Shown here: in pieces, positions 22,990 to 40,176 of the stretch | Numbering within the stretch: the stretch's first letter is position 1 | How the letters are laid out: each line of letters opens with the position of its first letter | Origin: Anaerolineae bacterium | GTDB taxonomy: Bacteria; Chloroflexota; Anaerolineae; J102 | Assembly: GCA_027002405.1 (NCBI GenBank) | Contig: JALWZT010000279.1 | Span: 1-43,155 of the forward strand | Reading direction: 5' to 3' | DNA: 43,155 bases | Notes under the pieces: generated by a model | The model's input: the letters and a program-made list of their open reading frames with translations, nothing else | What the model was told of the DNA's origin: nothing | The model's database searches: none | Translations under genes and position numbers: made by a program

Positions 22990-23610
22990 TTAAGGCCAGC
23001 GGGTGGCCCGGTTGTTGAGAGGCGTGCGGGAAACAAAGGGGTTCCCATCCAGAAAGAAACGCCAGGCCCGCTGCAGGGCCAGGGAATCCCCCCGCACGCC
23101 CACTCGCGGGCTGGTCGCGATGGGTTCTTGGGGAGAGGGGCCGGGTTCCACCCACAAAATTTGTCCCAGACACAGGTCATGCCCATCCAGCTTGCGGTCA
23201 ATGGCCAGGGCCTGACAAAGCTTCCCCGGGCCGTTGGTGAGCTGATGAAGGTCCCTTTTCCCTCGCAAGGCTTGCATCATCTCGATCCCTTCCAGGGGCT
23301 CCAACGCCCGGATTAAAACAGCCTGGCCGTCCCCCTCCCGACCTGTGACGATATTCAAACAGTGGTGCACGCCATAAATGAGATAGACATAGGCATGACC
23401 TGCCGGCCCGAACATGCTGCGATTGCGAGGGGTAGGCCCCCGAAAGGCATGGGAAGCCGCGTCATCTCCTCCCGAGTAAGCTTCGACCTCCACTATTCGT
23501 CCCGCCAGGCACTGCCCCTTCCATGTCCGCACCAGGATCTGCCCCAACAGTTCCGGCGCGACTTCCACCGCGTGTCGGGCGTAAAAGGCCCGGGGCAAAG
23601 GCTCAGCCAT
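22990..23610 (-). CDS. mpg: 3-methyladenine DNA glycosylase, AAG/MPG family
   Basis: Removes alkylated purines and hypoxanthine from DNA. 206 residues from the ATG at 23610 (MAEPLPRAFYARHAVEVAPELLG), typical length. Family motifs: AGRIVEVEAY with the catalytic Glu, DDAASHAFRGPTPRN, SMFGPAGHAYVYLIYG, CLNIVTG and LTNGPGKLC. The upstream open frame lies inside the MoaD-like gene, which it overlaps by 8 bp; the GGAGGAGC that encodes the MoaD Gly-Gly also serves as its ribosome binding site. Confidence 0.93.
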   Translation of the reverse strand: MAEPLPRAFYARHAVEVAPELLGQILVRTWKGQCLAGRIVEVEAYSGGDDAASHAFRGPTPRNRSMFGPAGHAYVYLIYGVHHCLNIVTGREGDGQAVLIRALEPLEGIEMMQALRGKRDLHQLTNGPGKLCQALAIDRKLDGHDLCLGQILWVEPGPSPQEPIATSPRVGVRGDSLALQRAWRFFLDGNPFVSRTPLNNRATRWP

Positions 23611-24429: not shown

Positions 24430-26190
24430 ATGTTTACCAATCATGATGTGGCCGAACATTTACGTTTGATTGCCACCCTCAAAGAAATCAAAGGGGAAGG
24501 ACGTTTTCATTATCTGGCTTTTTACAACGCCGCGGACCTCATCGACAACCTGCCCGAAGATATCAACGATATCGCCGAAGCCGGGCGGCTGACGGATCTG
24601 CCCGGCGTGGGCCAGGGGGTGGCCGAAGTGATTCAACAATTCCTGACCAGCGGGGATAGCGAATTGGCCCGCAAGCTTCGTTCTCAGGTGCCGGTAAGCC
24701 TGGTGGAACTGACCGAAATCCCAGGGTTGGGTGCGAAGAAGGTCGCGCGACTCTGGAAGGAGCTTGGCATTACCACCCTGGCCCAATTAAAAACCGCGGC
24801 CGAAGCGCATCGTATTCAAACCCTCAAAGGCTTTGGTGCCAAAACCGAAGCCAACATCCTGAAAGGCATCGCCCAATTGGAAGCCCGGGCCCACGCGCGC
24901 ACACCCCTGGGCGTGGCCCGTCCCCTGGCCCTCAAACTCATCCAGGCCCTGCGCCAGGCCCTCCCTCCTGACGCGCTCACCGCCATCGAGGCCGCGGGCA
25001 GCCTGCGCCGATGGAAAGAAACCGTGGGGGACCTGGACATCCTCGCGGCCAGCTCGCAACCGGATGAAGTGATGGAGGCTTTTCAGCATGTGCCCCTGGT
25101 GGAAGAAATCTTGCTGGGGGGTGAAACCAAAAGCCGGGTCCGGCTGCATGGCGGTTTGGAATGTGATCTGCGGGTGGTGGCACCGGAACATTGGGGCACA
25201 GCGTTCCAGTATTTTACCGGCAACAAGCAGCATAACATTGAATTGCGTGAGCTGGCACTGGAGCAAGGCTGGAGTTTAAGTGAGTATGGCCTGAAAGCCA
25301 CGGGCGAAGGCGAGGCCCCCGCGGGCGAAGTCCGGCATTTTCGCACCGAAGAGGCCTTGTACGCCTTCCTGGGTTTAGATTGGATCCCGCCCGAGATGCG
25401 GGAGAACCGGGGGGAGATCCCGCTGGCGCAAGCCCACGCGCTGCCGACTCTGATCACCGCCCAGGATATTTTGGGAGAGCTCCATGGGCATTCCGATTGG
25501 AGCGATGGCCGGGCCGATATCGAAACCATGGCTCAGGCCGCGATAGACCGGGGCTACCGTTACTGGTTGCTCAGCGATCACAGCGTGGGGCTGGGGGTTA
25601 CCGGCGGGGTGGATGGCGAAAAGTTGAAGCAACAACGCCGTGTGGTGGACGCACTCAATGAGCGTTGGGCCCGGGCAGGTGTGGACTTTCGTTTGCTCCT
25701 GGGGGTGGAACTGGAGATTCTGGCCGATGGCTCCTTGGCCCTTCCAGATGAGGTGTTGGCCACGTTGGATGTGGTCGTGGCCAGCATTCACAGCAGCCTG
25801 CGCCAGGATCAGAAAACCATCACCCAACGTTGCCTGAAAGCCCTTCGCAATCCTCATGTGCATATTTTGGGGCATCCCACCAGTCGTTTACTGGGGCGGC
25901 GTCCCCCCACCGCGCTGGATATGGATCAGGTATTGGAGGCCTGCGCGGATTTGGGCGTAGTGGTGGAAATCAACGCCCATCCCTGGCGATTGGACCTGAA
26001 CGATATCTACGCCCGCCGCGCGGTAGACCTGGGCTGTAAGATCGCGATCAGCACCGATGCCCACCAGCCTTCGGACATGGATTACCTGGTGTATGGTGTG
26101 GCCATGGCCCGACGGGCCTGGCTCACCCCCGAGGATGTCATCAATACCCGGCCTGTGGATGACATGTTGGGGATGCTGGTGCGGAAATAG
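24430..26190 (+). CDS. polX: PolX-type DNA polymerase with PHP domain
   Basis: Family X DNA polymerase for gap filling in base excision repair. 586 residues from the ATG at 24430: helix-hairpin-helix motifs ([44 protein letters not shown]), the nucleotidyltransferase site [16 protein letters not shown] with its two aspartates, [15 protein letters not shown], and a C-terminal PHP phosphoesterase domain ([32 protein letters not shown]) that gives 3'-5' exonuclease and AP-endonuclease activity in relatives. No clear ribosome binding site. The stop TAG (26188-26190) directly joins the heptamer array. Confidence 0.94.
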
Positions 26191-26258
26191 AGTAATCAGT
26201 GGTCAGTTATCAGTAATCAGTGGAAATCTGCGTCGCATCTGCGCCAATCAGCGCCCCC
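26191..26258. repeat. Heptamer array (ATCAGTA type) plus ATCTGCG words
   Basis: Heptamers at 26191-26221 start at the base after the polX stop (GGAAATAG then AGTAATCAG). They are followed by GAAATCTGCG, GCATCTGCG and CAATCAGCG (26222-26258). Same order as after osmC. Confidence 0.87.
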
Positions 26259-26274
26259 AAAATTCTCTCTTGTA

Positions 26275-26303
26275 TTGGCTGAACCATAAGGTGTTGTGAT
26301 AAA
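26275..26303 (+). promoter_or_regulatory. Possible promoter for a small RNA or the gltB leader
   Basis: -35 TTGGCT (26275-26280), 17-bp spacer, -10 GATAAA (26298-26303) with the extended element TGT directly upstream. Each hexamer is 4 of 6 to consensus. Predicted start near 26310. Confidence 0.45.
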
Positions 26304-26309
26304 ATGCGA

Positions 26310-26404
26310 CACGCTTCCTTCTGTGCTGGATAGCATCATCCTCGCCACCCCAAGGCAACGACGCCCCTGGACGACTTCAAGCCGCCCAGGGGTCTTTTTG
26401 TTTT
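26310..26404 (+). ncRNA. Candidate small RNA or attenuated leader upstream of gltB
   Basis: Between the promoter at 26275 and the terminator at 26364-26404 lie about 95 bases with small possible stems (GTGCT/AGCAT around GGAT, or GGAT/ATCC). I match it to no known family: it lacks the SRP RNA apical GGAAG motif, the T-box GGTGG word and the glutamine-riboswitch signature as I know them. It may be a free-standing sRNA, or a leader that controls gltB about 250 bp downstream. Confidence 0.4.
26364..26404 (+). terminator. Intrinsic terminator
   Basis: The stem CCCCTGG (26364-26370) pairs with CCAGGGG (26386-26392). The arms continue inward as CG/CG and CU/AG pairs separated by two A-C mismatches. 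The hairpin is followed by TCTTTTTGTTTT (26393-26404), the clearest Rho-independent terminator in the window. Confidence 0.85.
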
Positions 26405-26410
26405 GGGTGT

Positions 26411-26600
26411 ATCCTTTTTCGGTTGAAGCGTTGCATTGCCGTACTCACCGACTGAAGTCGGACACTTAAGGCCTGCGGCCAATGGACGGCCTTCGCCGTC
26501 CAGTCGTCCGGTCGACGAAGGTCGACCGTCGGCGCGAAGCGCCTAAAGAGCCCGAGTTTACTCGGTGAGGATGCTGGCGCCAACTCATTTAGAACGCCCC
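26411..26600 (+). repeat. Hairpin-string element, copy A
   Basis: A run of tight hairpins: CCGACT-GA-AGTCGG (26448-26461), GGCC-TGC-GGCC, GGACGGC-CTTC-GCCGTCC (26484-26501), GGTCGAC-GAAG-GTCGACC (26510-26527), GGCGC-GAA-GCGCC (26531-26543), CCGAGT-TT-ACTCGG (26552-26565), then GGCGCCAACTCATTTAG. About 90% identical to copy B (39995-40176); copy C (38778-39031) is inverted and diverged. It lies just upstream of gltB. Confidence 0.92.
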
Positions 26601-26659
26601 CTTTTGTTTTCTGACAACGTGCTTTCCCCATGGTATCCACACCCCCCAGGAGTCTCGCC

Positions 26660-29600
26660 ATGCAAGCTTTGTTCGCGTCGGATCCCGTGTTGCTTCATCA
26701 GTCTGTTTATCACAAAGAAGCCTGTGGCATTGGCGTCATCGCGGATATCCCCGGTCGCAGGAGTCATGAGTTGGTGCAGATGGCCGTGGAAGCCCTGGCC
26801 GCGATGGAACATCGCGGGGGCGTGGCCGCGGACGCGGGCACAGGCGATGGTGCGGGCTTGCTGACGCAAATCCCAGTTCGTTTTTTTGGTAAGTTGCTGG
26901 GGTTGCCTCAGATCAAGTATGGCGATCTGGCTGTAGGGGTGTTTTTTGTACCGCAGAATTTGGAAGATGCCGCGTGGCAAGAGGTGGTTCAGGCCGAGCT
27001 GAACATGTTGGGCACGCCGCTGCTCACCTGGCGATTGGTGCCCGTCAATACCGACGCTTTGGGAGCTTTTGCGGCTCGAACCCGGCCCCAGGTTTGGCAA
27101 GGATTCATCCCTCGCCCCGATTTCATCGATCGCAATGAGCCTTTTGAACGAACCCTTTACCTGGCACGGCGCCGGATTGAGCGCGCCTTTGCGCAGGCCG
27201 GATGGGATATCTACATCCCTTCTTTTTCCAGTCGAACCCTGGTGTATAAGGGGCTCATGTTAGGCTCTCAGGTGACAAGCTTTTATCCTGATCTGGCGGA
27301 CTCTGACTATCGAAGCGCGATGGTGCTTTTCCACCAGCGCTACGCGACCAACACCGCGCCCGATTGGCGTCGGGCCCAGCCTTTCCGACTGCTGGCTCAT
27401 AACGGCGAAATCAATACCCTGCAAGGGAATGTCAATTGGATGCGGGCCCGGGAAAAATGGCTGGCAGAGGAGGATGAATTTGTGCGAGCTATCGCTCCCA
27501 TCCTGGACCTCCAGGGCTCCGATAGTGCCATGCTTGATAACGCGGTGGAGGCTTTGGTGCGCCGGGGCCGAGAGCTGCGTCATGCCATCATGATGTTGAC
27601 TCCCGAAGCCTGGGAGCATGTGAAAGACATGCCACCTGCCTTACGCGCGTTTTATCGCTATCATGCCGCCCTGACCGAGCCCTGGGATGGCCCCGCGGCC
27701 TTGGTTTTTACCGATGGGCGAGTGGCCGGTGCTTCGTTGGACCGGAATGGGTTGCGGCCATTGCGGTATGTGCGCACCCTGGATGGCTTGCTGGTCGCCA
27801 GTTCGGAAGCAGGGGTGATTCCCTTTTCCCCCCGGCAGGTGGCCCGGCGGGGTAAGCTGGGACCAGGCCAGATGGTCTTGGTAGATACGCATCGGGGGCG
27901 TCTTTTGCTCAATGATGAGGTCAAGGCCGAAGTGAGTGGCCGCCGTCCTTATATGCAGTGGTCCCACAATCATTTTTACCACATTGACAAATTGGAGCGG
28001 GCCATCCGACATCGCGAGAATTTCTTGTTGCAAGAGGTCAATGGCGAACCGGTGGAGCCCGTGTATGAAGAGGGCGCGCTTTTCGATCCCGAGGAGGGAA
28101 AGGTTTCGGATTTGCTGCCCCTGGAACAGGCTTTTGGCTATACCGCGGAATCCATTGGCATGATGCTTAAACCCATGGCGATTGCCGGTAAAGAACCCAC
28201 CGGCGCCATGGGCGACGATACACCCCCTGCTGTCATGTCCCAATTGCCGCAGCCTTTGTATCACTATTTCTACCAGCGCTTTGCCGAAGTCACCAACCCG
28301 CCCATTGATCCCCTGCGGGAACGGTCGGTGATGTCGCTACAGATGCTTTTGGGTCGCCGACGCAGTCTTTTCACCGAAACACCTCAACACGCCCAGCTTA
28401 TCATCTTAGAAAGTCCGGTTTTGGATGCCGAAACCATGGGGCTGTTGCGTCGCCTGGCGCGTGACCGCCACGCTCACTTCGACGACGCCCATGACGGCTT
28501 GCCCTTTTCCCTGGTCCTCATCGATATCACCTTCCCGGTGGAGGAGGGCGAAGCGGGCTTAATGGCCGGGCTGGACCGGATTACCGCGGAAGCAGAAGAA
28601 GCCTTTCGGAATGGACACAATCTGATTTTGCTCAGTGATCGGGCTGTGGGCCCCGACCGCGCGCCTATCCCTGCCCTGTTGGCTGTGGGCGCGGTGCACC
28701 ATCATCTGATCCGTCAGGGTTTGCGCATGGCCGGGAGTCTTTTGGTTGAGGCCGGGGATGTGGTCAGTGTCCATCGTCTGGCCACGTTGATCGGGTATGG
28801 CGCGAATGGGGTGTATCCCTGGCTGGCACTGGATACCGTGACCCATATGGCTGCCGAAGGCCGGTTGAAAGGGGTGAGTGATCCTGCCACGGCCCGGGCC
28901 AATTACATCCGGGCTCTGGAGATGGGCCTGTTGAAAATCATGTCCAAAATGGGCATCAGCACGGTGGAAAGTTATTGTGGGGCCCAGATTTTTGAAATCA
29001 TTGGTCTGAATCAAGAGGTGGTGGACCGCTGTTTCACTGGAACCCCCAACCGCTTGGGGGGCGTGGGGTTCGATAAGCTGGCCGATGACGTGCTGTATCG
29101 GCATCATCTGGCTTATCAGACGTCGGTTAATAAGCTGGAGCATTGGGGGCAATTTAAGTATCGCAAACAAGGGGAGGTGCATGCTCTTTCGCCCCAAGTG
29201 ATTGAGGCCCTGCATCAGGCTGTGCGTACTCCGGACGCGTTGGGCGGGCATTTCTCGCTAGCCTATGCGCGTTATTTGCAATACAGCCGGCTTTTGCAGG
29301 AAAAGCCCCCCACCGATTTACGCGACCTGCTGGAAATCCGTTCGGATCGAGCCCCTATCCCCGTGGATGAGGTGGAGCCTGTGGAAGCTATTCTGCGGCG
29401 TTTTAGCACCGCGGCCATGTCCATGGGCGCGTTGAGTCCCGAAGCCCACGAAGTGTTGGCCGAGGCCATGAACCGTCTGGGGGCTCGTTCCAACAGCGGC
29501 GAGGGGGGCGAAGACCCCTCCCGTTATGGCACCATCCGTAATAGCGCGGTGAAGCAGGTGGCTTCTGGCCGTTTTGGTGTCACCCCGGCTTATTTGATAA

Positions 29601-31282
29601 GCGCCATGGAACTCCAGATCAAAATGGCCCAGGGGTCCAAGCCCGGGGAGGGGGGGCATCTGCCCGGGCATAAGGTCACAGACCTGATCGCGTCCATCCG
29701 CCTCACCACGCCGGGGGTTCCTTTGATTTCGCCTCCGCCTCATCATGATATTTATTCCATCGAAGATTTGGCTCAGCTCATTGATGACCTGCGCCAGATT
29801 CATCCCGAGGCGGAGATTTCGGTGAAGCTGGTGGCCCAAGCTGGCGTGGGGGCCATTGCTTCCGGGGTGGCGAAAGGCCGGGCCAATATCATCCTCATCT
29901 CCGGTCATGACGGGGGCACCGGCGCTTCGCCCCTGACCTCCATCAAGCACGCGGGCGCGCCGTGGGAAATGGGCCTGGCCGAAACCCAACAGGCGCTGCG
30001 TATGGGGGGATTGCGAGACCGGGTCGTTGTGCGTGCAGATGGCGGCTTGCGTAACGGGGTGGATGTGCTGAAAGCGGCTCTGTTGGGTGCGGATGAGTAT
30101 TCCTTTGGCACCCTGGCCATGCTGGCCGAAGGATGCATTATGGCCCGGGTATGCCATCGCAATACCTGCCCGGTGGGGGTGGCGACTCAGGACCCCAAGC
30201 GACGGGCCAAATTCCAGGGCCGGGTGGAGCATGTCATGGCCGCGTTTACCTTCATCGCTCAGGAGGTGCGGGAGCTCCTGGCCGCGATGGGGTATCGCTC
30301 CCTGGATGAAGTTATTGGCAAAAGCCATTTGTTGGTGCAAAAGGGAACCGGGAATCCCGCGCTGGATGCATTGGACCTGTCTCCCCTATTGGCACAACCG
30401 GAAACAGGAACCCCGCGTCATTTTGTGCGCTGGCCCGAATATGACGTGCCCAATGCCCTGGGCAACCGGGTGGCCGAGGCCGCGGTGGCTGCTCTGGCTT
30501 TGAACCAGCTCCCCCTTGCTCGCGGGTTTGAGATTCAGAATACCGATCGGGCGGTGGGTGCGCGCCTCAGCGGGCGTTTGACCCAGTTGGGTTACACCGA
30601 GCTTCCCCAAGACGCGATTCATTTCACCTTCCGAGGCAGCGCGGGCCAGTCCTTTGGCGCGTTCCTGAACCAGGGCGTGCGTTTTACCCTCATCGGCGAG
30701 GCCAACGATTATGTGGGCAAGGGGTTGGCCGGAGGTGTGATCGCAATTCGGCCCGACGAGGAAACCATCTACCCCTGGCATGAGCATTTTTTGGTGGGAA
30801 ATACCTGCCTCTACGGGGCCACTGGGGGGGAGCTCTATGTGGCAGGCCGCGCGGGCGAACGTTTCGCGGTACGTAACAGCCGGGCCCAGGCTGTGGTCGA
30901 AGGGGTAGGGGATCACGGATGCGAGTATATGACCGGAGGTGTGGTTGTGGTTTTGGGCCCTACGGGATATAACTTCGGGGCCGGTATGACCGGGGGCCAG
31001 GCTTTTGTGCTGGATGACGCGGATTGGCCCCGTTTTCTCAAGCGGTTGAATCGAGAACTGGTTTATGCCACACGGGTGGACGATGAAGGAGCGGCCCTGC
31101 TTTTGCGAAAGTTGGTGGAGGCTCATTACCGGCACACCCAAAGTCCGTGGGCCGCGGAACTGCTTGCCCAATGGTCCCAGGTGCTGCCTCGTTTTTGGCA
31201 TGTACGGCCCAAATGGATGAAAGAAGCGCGAGGGAATGAAGCCTCCCGGCTGGAAACAACGCGCTTGCTTGGGAAAGAGTAA
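26660..31282 (+). CDS. gltB: Glutamate synthase large subunit
   Basis: Makes glutamate from glutamine and 2-oxoglutarate. 1540 residues from the ATG at 26660, behind AGGAG at 26648-26652 (an ATG at 26630 would add 10). A short propeptide precedes the catalytic cysteine of the class II amidotransferase domain (Cys22, in ACGIGVIADIPG). The central and FMN domains follow (SNSGEGGEDPSRYG, KPGEGGHLPGHK), the 3Fe-4S cysteines are Cys1159, Cys1165 and Cys1170 (CIMARVCHRNTCPVG), and the GXGXG beta-helix domain closes the chain (GGVVVVLGPTGYNFGAGMTGG). No gltD follows; the electron-donating subunit or ferredoxin must be elsewhere. The stop TAA lies inside AGAGTAATCAG, the edge of the heptamer array. 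Confidence 0.96.
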   Translation: MQALFASDPVLLHQSVYHKEACGIGVIADIPGRRSHELVQMAVEALAAMEHRGGVAADAGTGDGAGLLTQIPVRFFGKLLGLPQIKYGDLAVGVFFVPQNLEDAAWQEVVQAELNMLGTPLLTWRLVPVNTDALGAFAARTRPQVWQGFIPRPDFIDRNEPFERTLYLARRRIERAFAQAGWDIYIPSFSSRTLVYKGLMLGSQVTSFYPDLADSDYRSAMVLFHQRYATNTAPDWRRAQPFRLLAHNGEINTLQGNVNWMRAREKWLAEEDEFVRAIAPILDLQGSDSAMLDNAVEALVRRGRELRHAIMMLTPEAWEHVKDMPPALRAFYRYHAALTEPWDGPAALVFTDGRVAGASLDRNGLRPLRYVRTLDGLLVASSEAGVIPFSPRQVARRGKLGPGQMVLVDTHRGRLLLNDEVKAEVSGRRPYMQWSHNHFYHIDKLERAIRHRENFLLQEVNGEPVEPVYEEGALFDPEEGKVSDLLPLEQAFGYTAESIGMMLKPMAIAGKEPTGAMGDDTPPAVMSQLPQPLYHYFYQRFAEVTNPPIDPLRERSVMSLQMLLGRRRSLFTETPQHAQLIILESPVLDAETMGLLRRLARDRHAHFDDAHDGLPFSLVLIDITFPVEEGEAGLMAGLDRITAEAEEAFRNGHNLILLSDRAVGPDRAPIPALLAVGAVHHHLIRQGLRMAGSLLVEAGDVVSVHRLATLIGYGANGVYPWLALDTVTHMAAEGRLKGVSDPATARANYIRALEMGLLKIMSKMGISTVESYCGAQIFEIIGLNQEVVDRCFTGTPNRLGGVGFDKLADDVLYRHHLAYQTSVNKLEHWGQFKYRKQGEVHALSPQVIEALHQAVRTPDALGGHFSLAYARYLQYSRLLQEKPPTDLRDLLEIRSDRAPIPVDEVEPVEAILRRFSTAAMSMGALSPEAHEVLAEAMNRLGARSNSGEGGEDPSRYGTIRNSAVKQVASGRFGVTPAYLISAMELQIKMAQGSKPGEGGHLPGHKVTDLIASIRLTTPGVPLISPPPHHDIYSIEDLAQLIDDLRQIHPEAEISVKLVAQAGVGAIASGVAKGRANIILISGHDGGTGASPLTSIKHAGAPWEMGLAETQQALRMGGLRDRVVVRADGGLRNGVDVLKAALLGADEYSFGTLAMLAEGCIMARVCHRNTCPVGVATQDPKRRAKFQGRVEHVMAAFTFIAQEVRELLAAMGYRSLDEVIGKSHLLVQKGTGNPALDALDLSPLLAQPETGTPRHFVRWPEYDVPNALGNRVAEAAVAALALNQLPLARGFEIQNTDRAVGARLSGRLTQLGYTELPQDAIHFTFRGSAGQSFGAFLNQGVRFTLIGEANDYVGKGLAGGVIAIRPDEETIYPWHEHFLVGNTCLYGATGGELYVAGRAGERFAVRNSRAQAVVEGVGDHGCEYMTGGVVVVLGPTGYNFGAGMTGGQAFVLDDADWPRFLKRLNRELVYATRVDDEGAALLLRKLVEAHYRHTQSPWAAELLAQWSQVLPRFWHVRPKWMKEARGNEASRLETTRLLGKE

Positions 31283-39950: not shown

Positions 39951-40176
39951 GCGCGGGCGCCACGCGCGGCAGCGCGCCGATACCGAGGAAAGGGGTCCTA
40001 TTTCGGTTGAGGCTGTACTCACCGACTGAAGTCGGACACTTAAGGCCTACGGCCAATGGACGGCCTTCGCCGTCCAGTCGTCCGGTCGACGGAGGTCGAC
40101 CGTCGGCGCGAAGCGCCTAAAGAGCCCGAGTTCACTCGGACAGGAGGCTGGCGCCGACTCATTTAGGACGCACCCC
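39951..40176 (+). repeat. Mosaic border fragment and hairpin-string element, copy B
   Basis: A border fragment (GGCAGCGCGCCGATACCGAG, 39968-39987) is followed by copy B (39995-40176): CCGACT-GA-AGTCGG (40022-40035), GGACGGC-CTTC-GCCGTCC (40058-40075), GGTCGAC-GGAG-GTCGACC (40084-40101), GGCGC-GAA-GCGCC (40105-40117), CCGAGT-TC-ACTCGG (40126-40139). Differences from copy A fall mostly in loops and linkers. Confidence 0.9.

Follow-up and report, generated by a model that had tools for sequence, protein, structure and literature searches.

The window (the whole stretch of DNA that was analyzed, 43,155 nt) is contig C279 of genome G000, from an uncultured Anaerolineae lineage, and contains, on its plus strand, the end of polX at 26190 and, downstream of it on the same strand, gltB. 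The features of the gltB upstream region are as follows.

26275 to 26305, plus strand: gltB promoter, TTGGCT, a 19-nt spacer ending in TGA, and the -10 hexamer TAAAAT at 26300 to 26305 (from the sequence and its orthologues)
26312 to 26404, plus strand: gltB leader through the terminator, from a predicted start site, giving a terminated RNA of about 88 to 90 nt
26328 to 26341, plus strand: possible non-conserved hairpin GGAT-AGCATC-ATCC (from the sequence; present in the centroid fold)
26354 to 26365, plus strand: P2 hexaloop hairpin GGC-AACGAC-GCC (A1, G4), putative ANTAR-binding site and antiterminator (GGCNNNGNNGCCCCT in 15/15 orthologues)
26363 to 26393, plus strand: intrinsic terminator stem-loop GCCCCTGG...CCAGGGGT (from sequence, folding, and conservation in 15/15)
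26394 to 26404, plus strand: U-tract CTTTTTGTTTT, in which the final 9 bases form the left target-site duplication of an inserted element
26405 to 26601, no strand assigned: MITE-like element of 197 bp (hairpin-string copy A), with 9-bp duplications TTTTGTTTT at 26396 to 26404 and 26602 to 26610
26660 to 31282, plus strand: gltB, glutamate synthase large subunit, the regulated gene (NF008730, 1708.5 bits)

The promoter combines a -35-like TTGGCT (26275 to 26280) with a TGN motif at 26297 to 26299 directly ahead of the -10, and the position of the -10 places the expected transcription start at about 26312. An extended -10 promoter had been proposed here in the initial annotation, and we confirm it, with the correction that the end given for it (26303) is 2 bases short. 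The intrinsic terminator that the same annotation had seen upstream of gltB is likewise present, with a stem that begins at 26363 and pairs 26363 to 26370 with 26386 to 26393 over 8 bp (seven Watson-Crick pairs and one G-U). The GCC at 26363 to 26365 is common to the 3′ arm of P2 and the 5′ arm of the terminator. The hexaloop of the hairpin at 26328 to 26341 has the A at position 1 (A1) but an A at position 4, so it is not a canonical P1, the name used here for a first hexaloop upstream of P2. For gltB itself, the ATG at 26660, which is preceded by the ribosome-binding site CAGGAG and lies about 255 bp past the terminator, is a likelier start than that at 26630. Between polX and the promoter (26191 to 26260) lie two types of dispersed repeat, AGTAATCAGTGG units and a 35-bp piece (26225 to 26259) that has many copies in the window's genome and its relatives.

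Since a DNA search with the entire 451-bp region was swamped by dispersed repeats, we used its repeat-poor part and then the leaders of orthologous gltB genes. Orthologues were collected by protein search (E below 1e-90) and were present in 15 of 20 genomes of the family, representing seven genera. All 15 share one arrangement directly upstream of gltB, namely a sigma-70 promoter, GGCNNNGNNGCCCCT with its GGC-NNNGNN-GCC hairpin, a GCCCCTG...CAGGGGY-type terminator with CAGGGG or CGGGGG in its 3′ arm, and a T-tract that provides the U-tract of the RNA. In each of them, the last three bases of the P2 hairpin begin the terminator stem. The -35/-10 pair is found in every leader, with a spacer of 17 nt in 13 of them, 18 nt in G017, and 19 nt in the window, and the distance from the -10 to P2 ranges from 22 to 52 nt. 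The genes upstream of the leader vary and include polX, a tRNA cluster, a thiolase gene, and genes for Crp, Memo-like, and cytochrome c proteins. A lack of conservation in close relatives, which the initial annotation had named as the outcome that would refute its proposal, is thus not what we observed.

The covariance search with gltB leaders that had been suggested as a check was also carried out. A model (R1) built from eight leaders recovered each of the 15 family leaders and added a sixteenth, in G008, which lies at the edge of a contig. Of the further R1 matches (E up to 1), fifteen were inspected and, besides the G008 leader, none resembles a gltB leader; the majority fall within long open reading frames, and one (G019:C453) looks like an ordinary terminator. 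In 298 genomes of the class, searched with stricter filters, R1 returned 10 of the family leaders and two chance matches inside reading frames, and nothing convincing outside the family; these filters also missed the window's own copy (G000), so weak relatives may escape them. No convincing P2-terminator unit was found at 14 gltB loci outside the orthologue set, where L044 and L047 gave weak, unlike matches, and no such leader was found upstream of glnA (22 loci of 26 matches, with one spurious match).

By composition the leader is unremarkable, and its claim to be more than chance comes from this conservation. The leader segment has a fold z-score of just -1.63, and 13 of 200 shuffles fold equally well. 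A scan of the window for consensus promoters and terminators reported no promoter and missed the gltB terminator, and it returned three terminator-like sites elsewhere, where chance alone would give 2.3. The leader pattern is expected 0.24 times per window-sized shuffle, and a second, unrelated match to it occurs in the window at 23294 to 23308. The hexaloop pattern by itself matches 194 times in the genome and is uninformative. What sets the leader apart is the combination of promoter, GGCNNNGNNGCCCCT, and terminator at 15/15 gltB orthologues.

The conserved overlap suggests how the leader could work. When folded from the predicted start, all 15 leaders have the terminator in their minimum fold, and forcing P2 to form yields a fold that is 3.2 to 12.3 kcal/mol worse. 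Given this preference, gltB transcription looks to be OFF by default in the folding model, from which the state in cells is extrapolated, and something would have to hold P2 for read-through to occur. In addition, the distance from the terminator stem to the first in-frame start is 33 to 43 nt in five genomes (G005, G014, G016, G018, and G019), which leaves no space for a second promoter; therefore, the terminator must sit inside the gltB leader. We consider it very probable that the segment is a transcription attenuator of gltB.

The P2 loop is nearly free of pairing duty, and its sequence is nonetheless constrained. Position 4 is G in 15/15 leaders, position 3 is a pyrimidine in 15/15, and position 2 is A in 14/15; G4 belonged to the search pattern, but the leader sequences had been read before that pattern was written. 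Position 1 is A in 7/15, including the window (AACGAC). In all nine leaders outside the window's genus, which represent six genera, a P1 hairpin (GGC-NNNGNN-GCC) lies 5 to 8 nt upstream of P2. The G4 of P1 is present in 9/9 by virtue of the pattern used to find these hairpins, and position 1 of its loop is A in five and G in four (G009 being counted by the hairpin 6 nt from P2). A fourth P1 pair forms in six of the nine as three pair types (T-A, C-G, and G-C), which amounts to modest covariation, while the three-pair stems of P1 and P2 are invariant at this gltB copy (gltB-1) and so lend no covariation support. The G009 leader (L039) has three tandem hexaloop hairpins before its terminator rather than two, as well as an array of AGTATTC-type repeats downstream of it.

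This architecture resembles that of published ANTAR antiterminator targets, which are described as dual hexaloops with A1 and G4, separated by linkers of 5 to 12 nt, with P2 overlapping an intrinsic terminator (PMC3369931). Tandem hexaloops are present in the nine leaders of the other genera and absent from the window and its genus; the linkers of the nine dual leaders (5 to 8 nt) fall within the expected range of about 5 to 12 nt, and the shared GCC makes P2 and the terminator mutually exclusive in 15/15. The same account places ANTAR targets mostly at nitrogen genes, including the glutamate synthase genes of Desulfotomaculum reducens (PMC3369931). In the reported EutV-RNA structure, G4 is the sole base contacted in a specific manner, and the minimal binding motif comprises one hexaloop (PMC8934654). 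An invariant G4 beside an A1 that is kept in only some of the P2 loops fits this picture. As the initial annotation had stated, no known RNA family is matched in Rfam (no match in the window at the gathering threshold, and nothing at the leader in six loci with E up to 1), but the statement does not extend to the published ANTAR targets, whose architecture the leader shares.

A candidate regulator is available in most of these genomes. The ANTAR model PF03861 finds one match each in 17 of the 20 family genomes and none in 14 controls. Among the 15 genomes with a leader, 13 have a match, the only one in G018 being divergent, and none was found in G004 and G014 (76% and 81% complete). G007, G010, and G013 have an ANTAR gene and no detected gltB-1. 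Across the class, 199 of 296 genomes have PF03861, most of them without the gltB leader; because ANTAR genes are this common, their co-occurrence with the leader is not specific. The ANTAR gene does not neighbor gltB: the two lie 8 kb apart in the congener G002 and on separate contigs elsewhere.

The ANTAR protein of the window's genome consists of a Response_reg domain (91.2 bits) and an ANTAR domain (84.3 bits), and the adjoining kinase contains GAF_PdtaS (75.5 bits) and HisKA_2 (66.2 bits) domains. By sequence, the ANTAR protein is closest to the structure 1S8N (3e-59), followed by EutV 6WSH (6e-39). We take 1S8N to be PdtaR; the structure entry itself reads putative antiterminator. As judged from these matches, the regulator is a PdtaR-type ANTAR response regulator beside a PdtaS-type kinase. 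We then compared RNA-contacting residues in 16 aligned ANTAR proteins (the shortened copy of G010 was left out); EutV numbering was carried over by means of the alignment and of the residues that the structure paper lists. The equivalents of EutV R142, K149, M172, and R175 are kept, with Phe at Y164, in 15 of 16, the exception being G018, whereas the positions of R168 and R177 have other residues (Q and P). The aligned residues suggest that the ANTAR protein of the window's genome would be able to bind RNA. In G018, the only ANTAR protein found (L094) is divergent, with Gln at the Met172 position, though the leader of this genome is of the standard dual type; an ANTAR orthologue may be absent from this assembly, which is 85% complete.

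Altogether, we favor a model, somewhat more probable than its competitors taken together, in which the gltB attenuator is opened by an ANTAR-family regulator acting on the hexaloop. RNA polymerase would start at the conserved promoter and, by default, halt at the terminator, which would yield an RNA of about 90 nt. As the P2 3′ arm is part of the terminator 5′ arm, both could not fully form together. A PdtaS-type kinase would activate the PdtaR-type ANTAR regulator, which would probably bind the P2 hexaloop via G4 and hold P2, such that polymerase reads into gltB. In six of the seven genera P1 would complete the classical dual target, and in the window's genus the target would be a single hexaloop. 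The promoter, the terminator, the overlap of the terminator with P2, their conservation, and the ANTAR gene are observed, and to these the model adds a presumed OFF state in cells, a presumed binding, a presumed activation, and a presumed signal, which the initial annotation linked to nitrogen metabolism. Several findings weigh against the ANTAR part of the model: P1 is absent from the window's genus, A1 occurs in only 7/15 P2 loops, R168 and R177 of EutV have no counterparts, the ANTAR and gltB genes are unlinked, and the presence of ANTAR genes does not follow that of the leader closely.

A second gltB paralogue (gltB-2) offers a comparison. In G011, G013, G014, and G017 (L228, L230, L231, and L232), gltB-2 is preceded by a promoter of its own and by one or two terminators with hexaloops. 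The hexaloops sit on CGC-NNNGNN-GCG (or GCT) stems and have A2 and G4 in 7/7, G4 having been in the search pattern. Such retention of the same loop features on a different stem speaks for a trans factor that reads the loop. Against gltB-2 as a target, the hexaloop occupies the inner end of the terminator arm, so that the lower stem could still form, and the leaders are homologous. We regard the gltB-2 leaders as a possible second ANTAR target. It also counts against them that no hexaloop-bearing terminator was found at gltB-2 of G015 and G056; at the former (L229), a hairpin GCGC-ACTGTC-GCGC lies downstream of a promoter-like site and has no terminator.

The main competitor of the ANTAR model retains the gltB attenuator and assigns the hexaloop to another agent, which could be a small molecule, a ribosomal protein or another protein that binds RNA, or a pause of the polymerase. 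Neither the attenuator anatomy nor the loop conservation names a ligand, the window's genus has no P1, and ANTAR genes are not specific to leader-bearing genomes, all of which leave room for such an agent. However, tandem G4 hexaloops with a linker of 5 to 8 nt and a terminator overlap are the ANTAR signature, Rfam returned no match, and a three-pair P2 is probably small for a metabolite pocket. We therefore judge this explanation rather unlikely, though the likeliest of the alternatives. A riboswitch as such was rated low, and a leader peptide is unlikely, the sole ATG near the start (26304) being upstream of the predicted start site.

The remaining explanations do without regulated termination by a hairpin. 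If GGC-N6-GCC were a DNA operator for a repressor, with the terminator merely lowering expression by a constant amount, one would expect short inverted repeats downstream of a strong promoter, which is what P1 and P2 are. Yet the overlap between P2 and the terminator arm is exactly three bases in 15/15, the distance from the -10 varies in a way that is unlike an operator, and the gltB-2 leaders keep the loop and its pairing on a different stem, making an operator improbable. An independent small RNA with trans targets would have the promoter and terminator needed to release an RNA of about 90 nt; it is nonetheless highly improbable, since the segment is always found immediately before gltB, conservation does not extend to the 5′ half of the RNA, the length varies from 61 to 91 nt among the modelled leaders, and no second full copy of the RNA was found in the genome. 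Consequently, of the two readings that the initial annotation had offered, a small RNA or a leader that ends early, the leader prevails, supported by its presence in 15/15, the changing upstream genes, and the lack of promoter room in five genomes. Finally, polX ends on the same strand and a simple scan reports no promoter, but a polX terminator behind a chance promoter match hardly merits consideration, as the upstream genes differ while the promoter, P2, and terminator stay with gltB.

Returning to the ANTAR-controlled attenuator, the window's genus departs from the dual form. No G4 hexaloop was found upstream of P2 in its six leaders; those of G005 and G006 have only about 15 nt of RNA ahead of P2, which starts 22 nt past the -10. 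The P2 loop has A1 and G4 in all six (AACGAC, AACGTC, or ATTGTC). On the protein side, position 173, which in EutV is the RNA-contacting Asn173, is Asp in 7/7 proteins of the window's genus and Asn in 8/8 others, with G018 set aside. The loss of P1 thus coincides with an Asn-to-Asp change, which, as one event on one branch, is suggestive only. Either one hexaloop suffices in this genus or control has changed. We tentatively propose, as a possibility more than an expectation, that an ancestral dual target lost P1 while its regulator changed Asn173 to Asp, producing a natural single-hexaloop ANTAR antiterminator. Deletion of P1 is reported to have abolished eutP induction (PMC3369931). If the proposal is true, antitermination needs no more than one hexaloop, contrary to the current model in which the protein has to visit both hairpins, and it would bear on the question about single hexaloops that the EutV-RNA structure left open. 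The same terminator and gene are preceded by three hexaloops in G009, by two in the other dual leaders, and by one in the window's genus, a natural series that offers a direct test of how far single hexaloops suffice.

Comparison with known systems indicates which parts are familiar. As in the Enterococcus faecalis eutP leader with EutV-EutW, there is an A1/G4 hexaloop whose 3′ arm is part of the terminator 5′ arm, the genome has an ANTAR-domain response regulator and a histidine kinase, and the sister genera have two hexaloops with linkers in the eut range. Unlike eutP, the window's genus has a single hexaloop, the P2 of sister genera often lacks A1, and the regulator and its putative target are unlinked. 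The Klebsiella nasF leader with NasR similarly has a hexaloop that overlaps a terminator ahead of a nitrogen-assimilation gene. NasR detects nitrate directly, by means of its NIT domain; in contrast, the regulator of the window's genome has a receiver domain and a separate kinase. Desulfotomaculum reducens belongs to the Firmicutes, a different phylum from that of the Anaerolineae. An ANTAR leader is predicted at its glutamate synthase gene as well, but the published motif is dual with A1 and G4 in both loops (Ramesh et al. 2012, PMC3369931). With Mycobacterium PdtaS-PdtaR, the system shares an ANTAR protein closest to 1S8N, a kinase with a GAF_PdtaS domain, and, as in 1S8N, Asp at position 173 in the protein of the window's genome. 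Mycobacterial PdtaR targets are reported to undergo translational repression (PMC8164766), whereas in the gltB leader a terminator overlaps the hairpin. The literature searched, which left out most subscription journals, contained no ANTAR leader in Chloroflexi or Anaerolineae. The mechanism is already known; what looks new is its lineage, the conservation of its target, and the form with a single hexaloop. The gltB leaders would bring ANTAR-like attenuation to nitrogen assimilation in Anaerolineae.

A search for further targets covered 1.15 Mb, or about 18%, of the G017 genome and was not exhaustive; it recovered gltB-2 but not gltB-1, probably owing to the reading-frame mask. At 88 intergenic terminators there are 75 overlapping hexaloops, 25 of them with G4, which is no enrichment over C4 (also 25). 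One further candidate hairpin (G017:C50, about 228633 to 228703, L245), CGC-AACGAG-GCG, overlaps a terminator that precedes a xanthine phosphoribosyltransferase-like gene by 61 nt; this gene scores below the NCBIfam cut-off, and the hairpin lies nearly at the predicted transcript start.

The hairpin-string copy A that the initial annotation had placed after the terminator is indeed there, but it is a separate MITE-like insertion and not part of the gltB switch. The element has 44 matches in the genome (E up to 1e-10), and its ends are inverted (GGGTGCGTCCTA...TAGGACGCACCC in the better-kept copies). Nine-base-pair target duplications flank the window copy. The flanks of five other full copies were read; four show such duplications, and the fifth (L164) also has TTTTGTTTT at both ends; a second window copy (40012 to 40175) shows no clear duplication. 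In G004, the gltB leader has no element and the site is uninterrupted. The insertion split the gltB T-tract yet left a full U-tract behind the terminator stem. Other copies of the element also lie in T-rich targets, at least one of them (L164) directly behind a terminator.
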